DNA from: Thunnus maccoyii | Lineage: Eukaryota > Chordata > Actinopteri > Scombriformes > Scombridae | DNA: 64,000 nucleotides | NCBI RefSeq assembly: GCF_910596095.1 | Contig: NC_056545.1 | Span: 925,001 to 989,000 of the forward strand | Direction: 5' to 3' | Shown: positions 17,716 through 23,700 of the stretch, one piece after another | How the letters are laid out: the number at the start of each line of letters is the position of its first letter | How positions within the stretch are numbered: position 1 is the first letter of the stretch | The notes under the pieces: model-generated | What the model was told of the DNA's origin: nothing | Databases searched by the model: none | Seen by the model: the letters and a program-made list of their open reading frames with translations, nothing else | Made by a program: the position numbers and the translations under genes

Positions 17716-20700
17716 GTGAGATGAGGATCTCTAACTGTCCATCACTGTTCTTCACTCACATCCCTCCACCATCATTATTCACACTCAGAGCTCTGTGTGT
17801 GTTGTGTTGAAGAACAAAGAAGCAGTACAGACCAGACTCTACTGGACCTGGACCTGGACCTGGACCTGAACCCAGCTGTGTGTCCATGAAGAGTGACCGG
17901 TCCATGAGGAATCGTGAACATTTTAAATCTGGACAACCTGCTGATAGTGGGTAAGAATGTAAAGCTGCAAAGACTGAACAGACTTTTCAATTCGTTCCTG
18001 CCTTTCTTTAACCTGTCTTTTAATTTAGGTTCTCTGCCTAGTAAAAGTTTAAAATGCTCTTGTATCTTAAATCATCTCACAGCTGAAAAGTTTTCTGCAG
18101 CTTTTAGCCAAAGATTGTCTAGTTCATCTTTTAACATTCATTGCTCCAACAAAGTGGACAAAGTGGCTCCTTCTAAATTGCGATATGTTCCCTCCATAAA
18201 TTCATCTCGCTGGTTAAATAACACCATTCATTGTTTCCGGCATAGAAGTTGGAGGACAGAGTGACTGTGGAAATCCACTAAGCTCAATGTTCAACATCTT
18301 CACTTCAAAGACCTTTTAACTGAAGTAAACAACATGATTAAAGATGTGAGGGCTTCTTATTTTTCCAACCTCATCTCCACCAGTAAACAAATCCTCAAAG
18401 CCTCTTTGACACTATTAATATTGTCACTCCGGCACCTCATATGCCTGTTTGGTCAAATAAGGACTGCAGCAATTTCCTTTTCTTCTCATTTATTCCCCTC
18501 TCCACTTATGCTTTTTGACCATCAGTTTTGGACTGTTTTTCTCAAATTTCCATGCAAAACCTCACTGTTCTGGTGGGTAGTATGAGATCCTCCTCCTCTC
18601 CCATTGACATTTTACCCACTTCCCTGCTCAAAAATGCACTTGAGTGTATTGGTCTATACTTGGTTTCTATTATAAACAGCTCCCTGCAATCTGGTTGTGT
18701 CCCAGCTTACTTCAAACATGCAATTGTTCAGCCCCTCCTGAAAAAATGAACCTTGATCCATACAGTCTCCATAATTACAGGCCTATATCCAAGCTGCCTT
18801 TTATCTCTAAAATTTTAGAGAAGGTTGTCACCAAACAGCTCACTGCTGTTTGACTGCACACAACATTTTTGATAAGTTTCAGTCAGGTTTCCGTCAGAAG
18901 CATTCCACTGAAACTGCTCTTCTCAGAGTTTACAATGATATATTGATGTCATCAGATGTGGGTGAGTGCTCCATTTTAGTGCTGCTGGATCTTAGTGCAG
19001 CTTTTGAAACTGTTGATCATAGCATAAATTATAGAAAGGCTTAGACAGTGTGTGAGTGTCTGGGGGAGATCCCTGGACTAGTTCTCCTCCTACCTCTCAG
19101 ATAGGAGTTTTTCTGTGTCACTTGGTCCTTACACGTCCGAAACTGCTGCTCTTTCCTGTGGTGTGCCGCAAGGTTCCGTTTTGGGTCCTATTCTCTTTGC
19201 TTTATATATGCTCCCGTTAGGTCAAGTTATCTGCAAATTTAGTGATATTTCCATTCCATGATCACTGTTATGCTGACGAAATTCTATGTCTGTTTTATGC
19301 CCAATATCCCAGACAAACTGTGCTGCACAACTGTCTGACTCCCATTAAGGACTGGATGTCAAACAACTTCTCACAAGAGGTTCTCATCATTGCTTCTGAC
19401 AGTATAGCTCCCAAGGTTGCTCAGAGCACTGGGTCCCTTTCATCAGCTGTTTGGACTAATTTAAGAAATCTTAGTGTCCTATTTGACCAGGCAATGCATT
19501 TCAATCAGCATATTAAATCATTGACCTGTACATGTATGAAATATTGCAAAACTTAAGTCAGTTGTATCATAACTGAAACTCAAAATTATTATTCATCGGT
19601 CTGCATTTTCCATAGATGCTTTATAAAAACAATTGAAGACCCATGTTTTTACATAACTTTTGTGCCATCTTGAGCTGTGTGTGATGTGAAGCGATCATTC
19701 GTTCATTTGTTTCTTCTTGAGGTACCCTGCTGCCTGTGTTTTGTTTTTATGTTAACTTTAACTTGTGGCGTATGTTTTTATTGTTTGTATGTTTTTATGG
19801 TCTTAATTTTAACTTTTATTGATGTGAACCACTGTGTGAATTTGATTTATTATTATTATTATTATTATTATTATTATTATTATTATTATTATTATTATTA
19901 TTATTATTATTATTGTTATTATTATTATTATTATTATTATTATTATTATTGTTAGTAGTAGTAGTAGGATCATTATTATTATAATTTATCAGAGCTGTCG
20001 CTGTTTCAGGATCCAGCAGCACAGGCTAGACTCTGCTGGACTTGGACTTGGACCTGGACCCAGCTGTGTGTCCATGAAGAGTGACCGGTCCATTGGGAAA
20101 ACTGAACATTTTAAATCTGGACAAACTGCTGATAGTGGGTAAGAATGTAAAGCTGCAAAGACTGAACAGACATTACATTCGTTAGGTTATGCTAGAAAAG
20201 AACTGGTTTGTACGACGTGTTGTCCGACCACGTCAGTGAAAAGCCAGCCGTCATAGAGAGGGAGGAGACGTGATAATCATTTAAATATGGAGATAACAGA
20301 TCACATGTTCAGACAGTCTCTCCTGGAAGACATTCATGGTGTTGCACTCGGTTGTTTATATGAAAAGTGACATGATATGATTTATTTGTACATTACAGAC
20401 ATAAAAAACATGTTAAAGTGAAAACACTGATTTCCAACAAGGACCCAAGATGTTAAAAGACAAAACACAAGACATACAACATAAAACTGAATCACCACAA
20501 ATTAAATAAAATAATAAACGCCCACATCAAAACACAAAGTACAACTGTCACAGCCCGGCTCACAGACTGCGACAAAATATGGGAAACCAGACGGGTTTTG
20601 TAACTTAGGTGCTGCTCTTTCCTGTGGTGTGCCGCAAGGTTCCGTTTTGGGTCCTATTCTCTTTGCTTTATATATGCTCCCGTTAGGTCAAGTTATCTGC

Positions 20701-23700
20701 AAATTTAGTGATATTTCCATTCCATGATCACTGTTATGCTGACGAAATTCTATGTCTGTTTTATGCCCAATATCCCAGACAAACTGTGCTGCACAACTGT
20801 CTGACTCCCATTAAGGACTGGATGTCAAACAACTTCTCACAAGAGGTTCTCATCATTGCTTCTGACAGTATAGCTCCCAAGGTTGCTCAGAGCACTGGGT
20901 CCCTTTCATCAGCTGTTTGGACTAATTTAAGAAATCTTAGTGTCCTATTTGACCAGGCAATGCATTTCAATCAGCATATTAAATCATTGACCTGTACATG
21001 TATGAAATATTGCAAAACTTAAGTCAGTTGTATCATAACTGAAACTCAAAATTATTATTCATCGGTCTGCATTTTCCATAGATGCTTTATAAAAACAATT
21101 GAAGACCCATGTTTTTACATAACTTTTGTGCCATCTTGAGCTGTGTGTGATGTGAAGCGATCATTCGTTCATTTGTTTCTTCTTGAGGTACCCTGCTGCC
21201 TGTGTTTTGTTTTTATGTTAACTTTAACTTGTGGCGTATGTTTTTATTGTTTGTATGTTTTTATGGTCTTAATTTTAACTTTTATTGATGTGAACCACTG
21301 TGTGAATTTGATTTATTATTATTATTATTATTATTATTATTATTATTATTATTATTATTATTATTATTATTGTTAGTAGTAGTAGTAGGATCATTATTAT
21401 TATAATTTATCAGAGCTGTCGCTGTTTCAGGATCCAGCAGCACAGGCTAGACTCTGCTGGACTTGGACTTGGACCTGGACCCAGCTGTGTGTCCATGAAG
21501 AGTGACCGGTCCATTGGGAAAACTGAACATTTTAAATCTGGACAAACTGCTGATAGTGGGTAAGAATGTAAAGCTGCAAAGACTGAACAGACATTACATT
21601 CGTTAGGTTATGCTAGAAAAGAACTGGTTTGTACGACGTGTTGTCCGACCACGTCAGTGAAAAGCCAGCCGTCATAGAGAGGGAGGAGACGTGATAATCA
21701 TTTAAATATGGAGATAACAGATCACATGTTCAGACAGTCTCTCCTGGAAGACATTCATGGTGTTGCACTCGGTTGTTTATATGAAAAGTGACATGATATG
21801 ATTTATTTATACATTACAGACATAAAAAACATGTTAAAGTGAAAACACTGATTTCCAACAAGGACCCAAGATGTTAAAAGACAAAACACAAGACATACAA
21901 CATAAAACTGAATCACCACAAATTAAATAAAATAATAAACGCCCACATCAAAACACAAAGTACAACTGTCACAGCCCGGCTCACAGACTGCGACAAAATA
22001 TGGGAAACCAGACGGGTTTTGTAACTTAGGTGCTGCTCTTTCCTGTGGTGTGCCGCAAGGTTCCGTTTTGGGTCCTATTCTCTTTGCTTTATATATGCTC
22101 CCGTTAGGTCAAGTTATCTGCAAATTCAGTGATATTTCCATTCCATGATCACTGTTATGCTGACGAAATTCTATGTCTGTTTTATGCCCAATATCCCAGA
22201 CAAACTGTGCTGCACAACTGTCTGACTCCCATTAAGGACTGGATGTCAAACAACTTCTCACAAGAGGTTCTCATCATTGCTTCTGACAGTATAGCTCCCA
22301 AGGTTGCTCAGAGCACTGGGTCCCTTTCATCAGCTGTTTGGACTAATTTAAGAAATCTTAGTGTCCTATTTGACCAGGCAATGCATTTCAATCAGCATAT
22401 TAAATCATTGACCTGTACATGTATGAAATATTGCAAAACTTAAGTCAGTTGTATCATAACTGAAACTCAAAATTATTATTCATCGGTCTGCATTTTCCAT
22501 AGATGCTTTATAAAAACAATTGAAGACCCATGTTTTTACATAACTTTTGTGCCATCTTGAGCTGTGTGTGATGTGAAGCGATCATTCGTTCATTTGTTTC
22601 TTCTTGAGGTACCCTGCTGCCTGTGTTTTGTTTTTATGTTAACTTTAACTTGTGGCATATGTTTTTATTGTTTGTATGTTTTTATGGTCTTAATTTTAAC
22701 TTTTATTGATGTGAACCACTGTGTGAATTTGATTTATTATTATTATTATTATTATTGTTAGTAGTAGTAGTAGGATCATTATTATTATAATTTATCAGAG
22801 CTGTCGCTGTTTCAGGATCCAGCAGCACAGGCTAGACTCTGCTGGACCTGGACTTGGACCTGGACCCAGCTGTATGTCCATGAAGAGTGACCGGTCCATT
22901 GGGAAAACTGAACATTTTAAATCTGGACAAACTGCTGATAGTGGGTAAGAATGTAAAGCTGCAAAGACTGAACAGACATTACATTCGTTAGGTTATGCTA
23001 GAAAAGAACTGGTTTGTACGACGTGTTGTCTGACCACGTCAGTGAAAAGCCAGCCGTCATAGAGAGGGAGGAGATGTGATAATCATTTAAATATGGAGAT
23101 AACAGATCACATGTTCAGACAGTCTCTCCTGGAAGACATTCATGGTGTTGCACTCGGTTGTTTATATGAAAAGTGACATGATATGATTTATTTATACATT
23201 ACAGACAAAAAACATGTTAAAGTGAAAACACTGATTTCCAACAAGGACCCAAGATCTTAAAAGACAAAACACAAGACATACAACATAAAACTGAATCACC
23301 ACAAATTAAATAAAATAATAAACGCCCACATCAAAACACAAAGTACAACTGTCACAGCCCGGCTCACAGACTGCGACAAAATATGGGAAACCAGACGGGT
23401 TTTGTAACTTAGGATAAGTGTTTATTTACAAAATGATAAATGAGAACGGAAAAAACATGGAAGTCAGTAATCACTAATGTAGGCATGTGTGGATGTGTGG
23501 ATGTGTGTGTGTCGGCAACCAAAAAAACAAAAACAGCCGCGCCGCGCCGTGCTCGTGGCTACATTATTCACTGGAGGGATTTTATATGAACACACACTGG
23601 CCCTGGTGTTATAGCCATGCTGAGTGCTGATGAATGCCAAGATTTTCAGTGTATTCGTTCTTGACAACATCTTTGTCCCAAACAGGATTCACTTGGTTTT

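Follow-up and report, generated by a model that had tools for sequence, protein, structure and literature searches.

Variable numbers of N-terminal repeat exons in fish NLR genes are in print (PMC4852459, PMC11192531), as the preliminary description of this DNA had assumed for N-terminal peptide repeats, and the available parts of these papers do not state how single repeats are gained. The question raised by this locus is how such an exon can be multiplied inside a receptor gene with the reading frame unbroken. The stretch analysed (the window, 64,000 nucleotides) lies on contig C13 (925001-989000) of an assembly with 54 contigs and a total of 782 Mb, and paralogues could be compared within the same genome. 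The features of the window are collected in Table 1.

Table 1. Features of the NLR gene and of the tandem array, in window coordinates.
Feature	Position	Strand	Length	Basis or remark
EX1, coding part from ATG	17627-17715	+		Ends in phase 2
EX2, first N-terminal repeat exon	17813-17950	+	138 nt	Phase 2-2
5' part of L2-like LINE fragment, outside the duplication	18003-19143	+		Match to L009; translated reverse transcriptase matches; genome copies
Tandem unit 1	19144-20609	+	1466 bp	3' portion of L2; (TTA)n; exon; old intron (407 bp); 64 bp from the start of the second element
Repeat exon copy 1	20010-20138	+	129 nt	Phase 2-2
Tandem unit 2	20610-22030	+	1421 bp	Sequence comparison among units
Repeat exon copy 2	21431-21559	+		Identical to copy 1
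Tandem unit 3	22031-23413	+	1383 bp	Sequence comparison among units
Repeat exon copy 3	22816-22944	+		Differs from copies 1 and 2 by two amino acids
Second dispersed element	23350-23555	+		Against 393-bp copy L049; right half missing
EX4	24598-24676	+	79 nt	Phase 2-0
EX5	24838-25066	+		Frame reading
FISNA-NACHT exon	25230-27022	+		Read to in-frame stop
Second NLR gene, EX2	57642-57785	+		Followed by 83-nt intron without L2 (empty site)
Second NLR gene, last repeat exon	57869-57988	+		Preceded by the same 83-nt intron

The host is a fish-type NLR gene, since Pfam FISNA (1.6e-33, residues 13-84) and NACHT (1.1e-33, residues 94-261) matched the translation of window positions 25223-27022, and the NOD2 winged-helix and NLRC4 HD2 models also matched the last exon (25230 on). 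A single large exon encodes FISNA immediately followed by NACHT, and the N-terminal repeats lie one per exon (EX2 and the three copies, with boundaries read from the sequence, as for all exons of this gene); both are features of the fish-specific NLR group (NLR-C), the second as described in PMC4852459. Genes of this kind also have C-terminal LRRs and, in some groups, B30.2; a frame at 42869-43534 of the window matched PRY and SPRY and may belong to this gene. An in-frame stop follows just beyond a GTAAGT donor-like site near 27018, and the 106-nt EX1 query (17615-17720) was 100% identical in several paralogues.

Three head-to-tail units were confirmed in this one assembly. Units 1 and 2 differed at 1 of 1421 aligned bases, units 1 and 3 at 8 of 1383, and units 2 and 3 at 7 of 1383; their lengths differed by the (TTA)n tract (arrays of 140, 95 and 59 nt in the three units, Tandem Repeats Finder) and by a 2-nt deletion in unit 3. 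Chance similarity as the source of three 1.4-kb copies at more than 99% identity is excluded. Each exon copy (129 nt, phase 2-2) was preceded by AG and followed by GTAAGA, the 12 nt upstream and 10 nt downstream were identical around all three, and copy 3 differed from copies 1 and 2 by two amino-acid changes (L to P and V to M). The preliminary description had reported three tandem units with exon starts at 20010, 21431 and 22816, each with a complete exon and intact splice sites, and all of this was found again; the start of its array (19144) also held, and only the end shifted, from 23412 to 23413. These units come from a single assembly, and their number in reality could be 2, 3 or more.

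A search of the 782-Mb genome with up to 1 mismatch allowed placed the joint between units (GTAACTTAGG followed directly by TGCTGCTCTTTCC) at 2 sites, each of them within the array, and gave no match to the reversed control pattern. Little homology had been claimed for this joint, and the count bears the claim out: the run of identical bases outward from the break is 0 on either side, and with shifts from -2 to +2 only 3-6 of 20 bases around it agree, as in a non-homologous joint of a tandem duplication. Because the joints are identical, they point to a single founding event, after which the number of units rose, in the simplest case through unequal exchange. The same joint weighs on an assembly artefact, by which a single real unit, or the versions of two haplotypes, would have been written as three. 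Repeats of 1.4 kb that are almost identical and contain TTA tracts pose difficulties for assembly, and ordinary heterozygosity can account for a difference of 0.5%. The available part of one study (PMC5894186) also mentions signs that NLR copies have been collapsed in assemblies of fish genomes. Against this, the joint is new DNA, with the same breakpoint at two places and nowhere else, so a single unit is unable to produce it; a single real unit was rejected on this ground, the joint requiring at least two. The substitutions are moreover spread along the units and the TTA tracts have three different lengths. An artefact is accordingly considered improbable, and a genuine tandem array is the reading adopted.

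The left end of each unit falls inside an L2-like LINE fragment. Translated, this fragment matched a frame at 33956-35032 of the window (E 3.5e-23), which itself reached 22.4 bits against Pfam RVT_1, below the cut-off of 29.6; a GDSL-type frame lies near this reverse transcriptase frame, at 34-36 kb. The name L2 is taken over provisionally from the preliminary description, on general knowledge of the CR1/L2 group together with the translated reverse transcriptase similarity. Among the best 40 of 422 candidate matches, there were at least 60 matching stretches on 21 contigs, and at least 13 stretches, apart from the window locus and the paralogue L009, ended at query base 1820-1821; within these 40, the many dispersed copies share a 3' end, as LINEs of the L2/CR1 group do. 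In the same best 40 of 422, the closest long match was L009 (85% over query bases 1-1405), the other matches spanning base 1 to at least 1350 were at most 82% identical, and shorter stretches of other copies reached 86-92%.

Comparison with paralogues suggests the order of events. L009 (C13:524000-533900) carries EX1, EX2, a middle exon, the L2-like fragment and one repeat exon. The intron of another paralogue, L012, reads uninterrupted from CATGCACATTT into ATCAGAG, and in L009 the L2 stands between these two parts; the insertion lies 22 nt upstream of the exon, with the last 22 nt of the intron and the 3' splice site spared. The uninterrupted form of the 3' splice region of the repeat exon was found at 26 genome places (up to 2 mismatches), a count that includes L009's own middle exon and counts some genes several times, and the L2-junction form at 4 places under the same threshold, namely the three units and L009. 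These counts, with the single-unit state of L009, argue that the L2 was already in place when the tandem duplication occurred. The genome thereby holds a before-and-after series of empty intron, L2-bearing single unit and triplicated unit, which supports the order put forward in the preliminary description, a LINE landing followed by duplication of the composite. Most simply, the L2 insertion would be common to the window gene and L009 and predate the triplication; independent insertions in the two genes were judged unlikely, given the same 3' junction at only 4 places. Some features do not fit clean sharing: the middle exon of L009 has no counterpart in the window gene, whose L2 has a later start and a different left boundary, and the two L2 copies differ in their internal gaps, which leave window 19425-19598 and L009 4105-4342 unaligned; each gene must then have lost sequence later.

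Divergence values lead to a further distinction. K2P distances between the window and L009 were 0.087-0.097 over three L2 stretches and 0.019-0.064 over four stretches outside the L2, compared with 0.0007-0.0058 between units. Either the duplication took place long after the L2 insertion, or conversion keeps the units alike; gene conversion between units could give them a falsely young look. As the L2 is older than the duplication by K2P, its landing did not directly trigger the duplication, and the proposed route from LINE to duplication therefore stands as an order of events and not as a direct trigger. That the stretches outside the L2 have diverged less than the L2 itself counts against the simple history and calls for conversion between paralogous genes, with which it would agree; this process is discussed for the fish NLR family in the available part of one study (PMC4852459). 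Changes were polarised with L009 as outgroup, and for the exon-intron part also against six other paralogues. With L009 as outgroup, unit 3 had private changes at unit positions 97, 1082, 1126 and 1309 and the 2-nt deletion, units 1 and 2 together differed from L009 at 627 and 899, unit 1 had a private change at 1245, and position 925 received no polarity call; the changes thus fall on both branches.

At the right end, unit 3 stops (23413) 64 bp inside a second dispersed element, and units 1 and 2 retain only those 64 bp. This element was present at no fewer than 19 other genome places among the best 40 of 116 candidates, and was absent from the equivalent intron of L009, L012 and L013, where other intron DNA was found (176 bp in L009). 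One of its six fetched copies (L049) has 36-bp terminal inverted repeats, which suggest that the element may be a DNA transposon; no target-site duplication was recognised in the six copies. Judged from these matches, both breakpoints of the duplication lie inside putative mobile elements, the left one in the L2 and the right one in the second element. The array had been called retroelement-bounded; this holds for the left break, while the right break falls inside a different dispersed repeat, possibly a DNA transposon.

Each unit begins inside the L2 and runs into 3' flanking DNA, as would also be expected of LINE 3' transduction, that is, of an L2 transcript reading through into the exon and being reinserted with a truncated 5' end. 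Such copies would need to land precisely at the end of their source, and the units are in exact head-to-tail order with a single breakpoint pair, retain intron DNA and show neither a tail nor a target-site duplication at their joints. Dispersed copies of the L2 3' end with the NLR exon were also searched for: among the best 40 of 931 candidates, the full 601-base query was matched only by the three units, and the next best match over exon and intron was L004, in the L009 gene (91%). Transduction was rejected on the missing tail and target-site duplication and the precise head-to-tail order, and is regarded as extremely improbable.

Tandem duplication of a composite is therefore retained, and the following scheme is proposed. 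In an ancestral FISNA-NACHT gene, each N-terminal repeat would have lain on its own phase 2-2 exon, and the introns separating these exons would have measured about 83 nt. Into one such intron an L2-like LINE would have inserted 22 nt before the exon, so that the 3' splice site was preserved, as the paralogue comparison indicates, and a second dispersed element would have come to lie in the next intron of the window gene, where the compared paralogues are without it. A tandem duplication would then have fused, without homology, an internal point of the second element to one within the L2, as seen in the joint; the likeliest mechanisms are non-homologous end joining and template switching during replication. 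The resulting 1.4-kb direct repeats may have undergone unequal homologous exchange, yielding a third unit with an identical joint; exchange is inferred because the joints are identical and units 1 and 2 are closer to each other than to unit 3. The exon being symmetric, each copy would add 43 residues if spliced in. The scheme as a whole (L2 insertion, second element, blunt tandem duplication, unequal exchange and symmetric exon) is considered highly probable.

The reading frame is open from the ATG (17627) through FISNA-NACHT in all 8 subsets of the three copies. EX1, EX2, 0-3 copies, EX4, EX5 and the exon from 25230, when joined, encode 775, 818, 861 and 904 residues before the stop. The extra copies had been claimed to be in frame, and the frame is preserved in every combination; their inclusion by splicing into the N-terminal repeat region is a prediction.

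The behaviour of this exon type was compared over 21 sequences, namely the window and 20 stretches fetched around the best matches. Self-written splice motifs, requiring intact splice sites and neither length nor frame, caught 41 repeat exons of 117-210 nt, all 41 divisible by 3 and with open frames; these are not independent, as they include the three copies of the window along with other duplicates of recent origin, 3 of the 21 sequences (L016, L023 and L025) gave none, and EX2 of L014 and L017 and others were missed. The exon type therefore looks constrained in the family. Sixteen of the 41 were EX2-type exons, whose lengths differ by multiples of 6 nt (a Gly-Pro hexamer).

These data bear on whether the triplicated exons are passengers, skipped in the mRNA and kept because they are harmless. 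Their preceding introns have grown to 2059, 1292 and 1256 nt instead of the usual 83 nt or so, copy 3 has its two amino-acid changes, and use of the exons is a prediction from sequence; on the other side stand the identical flanks of the copies, the open frame in 8 of 8 combinations and the uniformly in-frame lengths of the family. A passenger role is considered rather unlikely, and extra copies that can be spliced in are the favoured reading.

The usual 5' end of these genes consists of EX1, EX2, sometimes middle repeat exons, the last repeat exon, a long intron, EX4 and FISNA-NACHT. Over the 20 fetched loci of this subgroup, adjacent repeat exons lie as a rule about 200 bp apart with no L2 match between them (L009 being the exception), and at other NLR loci in the genome the spacing ranges from 0.2 to 2.7 kb. 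One locus (L021, on C8) has four repeat exons, the middle two near-identical. Transposon-bounded duplication is therefore one route and not the general one; the concrete route to N-terminal repeats proposed earlier is kept with this restriction.

Tandem exon duplication with unequal crossing over is a known general process. The window array resembles it in its symmetric exon, its tandem units and a third unit with the same joint, and differs in its founding joint, at which two mobile elements of unrelated kinds meet and share 0 bp of homology. The 200-bp array of L021 likewise multiplies the same exon type in frame, but its unit is an exon with a short intron and without an L2 match. In zebrafish NLR-B30.2/NLR-C genes, as far as described in the available parts of two papers (PMC4852459, PMC11192531), an N-terminal motif of about 30 residues is encoded by one exon per copy, followed by FISNA-NACHT; the window gene is alike in carrying such repeats, each on its own exon, before FISNA-NACHT. 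Those parts describe numbers that vary between genes and exon shuffling, and no transposon-bounded duplication unit, unlike the window unit, which combines the 3' part of the L2 with the exon and the beginning of the second element. No report of transposon-bounded exon multiplication in fish NLRs was found among titles and the beginnings of abstracts, within a scope that excludes most subscription journals. The transposon-bounded route, with both breakpoints in mobile elements and a before-and-after series, is the new part, and the locus illustrates step by step how a receptor of this kind can be extended at its front with the reading frame unbroken.

Larger units were also found. On C2 (L015), EX1 and EX2 occur in three copies spaced about 3.6 kb apart, and 6091 bases compared at this shift are 99.5% identical; the last repeat exon was matched in the first two copies only, and the third alone leads to EX4 and NACHT (L016). 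Repeat exons on other contigs were sampled in ten short stretches (L039-L048), two of which, read by eye, have a repeat-exon pattern in each copy: L047 on C8 (980-nt match, 98.6%, spacing 1111) and L048 (496-nt match, 97.2%, spacing 1481). With a further repeat in L026 (683-nt match, 93.9%, spacing 3211), these cases indicate that multiplication of the front end in large units recurs in the genome. More tentatively, the front end may be multiplied at several scales, from the 6-nt Gly-Pro hexamer through 200-bp exon-intron units and kilobase transposon-ended composites to the 3.6-kb modules with the first exon on C2, with the 1.4-kb direct repeats still changing number between individuals and giving alleles with different N-terminal repeat numbers. 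The triplication scheme itself predicts differences in unit number between individuals.

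The same donor context, AGTGG|GTAAGA, occurs at EX2 and at all three repeat exon copies of the first NLR gene, whereas in L009, a single-unit paralogue of the same genome, all three repeat exons carry GGAAG|GTCAGA. Being common to EX2 and the three copies and different in L009, this context suggests conversion within the first NLR gene. These two genes also differed from the other paralogues in repeat exon type: the exon preceding the long intron was of the middle type in both, instead of the last type, and the last repeat exon may have been lost from each gene, a middle exon thereby being joined to the long intron.

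Across two other NLR stretches, L015 and L016, an EX1-EX2 module was present three times in all, with a period of about 3.6 kb (99.5% identity at this shift in L015). The last repeat exon of the L015 array was matched in module copies 1 and 2 only, and EX4 and NACHT were reached only from the third module. One possibility is that the modules supply a set of alternative first exons arranged in an array. In L047, a 980-nt duplication (98.6% identity, spacing 1111) started within a repeat exon, close to its hexamer tract.

Within the window, the FISNA-NACHT frame of the second NLR gene ended 84 codons earlier than that of the first, within the HD2 match, and is possibly broken. The 751-codon frame is part of another LINE. 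The PRY-SPRY frame contains a (CTC)21 tract, which reads as a long serine run.

Locations of the features described
Feature	Location	Content
EX2, first NLR gene	window 17813-17950	
Middle-type repeat exon, first NLR gene	window 20010-20138	
Middle-type repeat exon, L009	L009 4677-4823	
PRY-SPRY frame	window 42869-43534	
(CTC)21 tract	window 43243-43305	
Open frame, 751 codons	window 52665-54920	endonuclease and reverse transcriptase matches
FISNA-NACHT frame, second NLR gene	window 60710-62275	
L015	C2:716000-725900	
L047	C8:34497300-34500000
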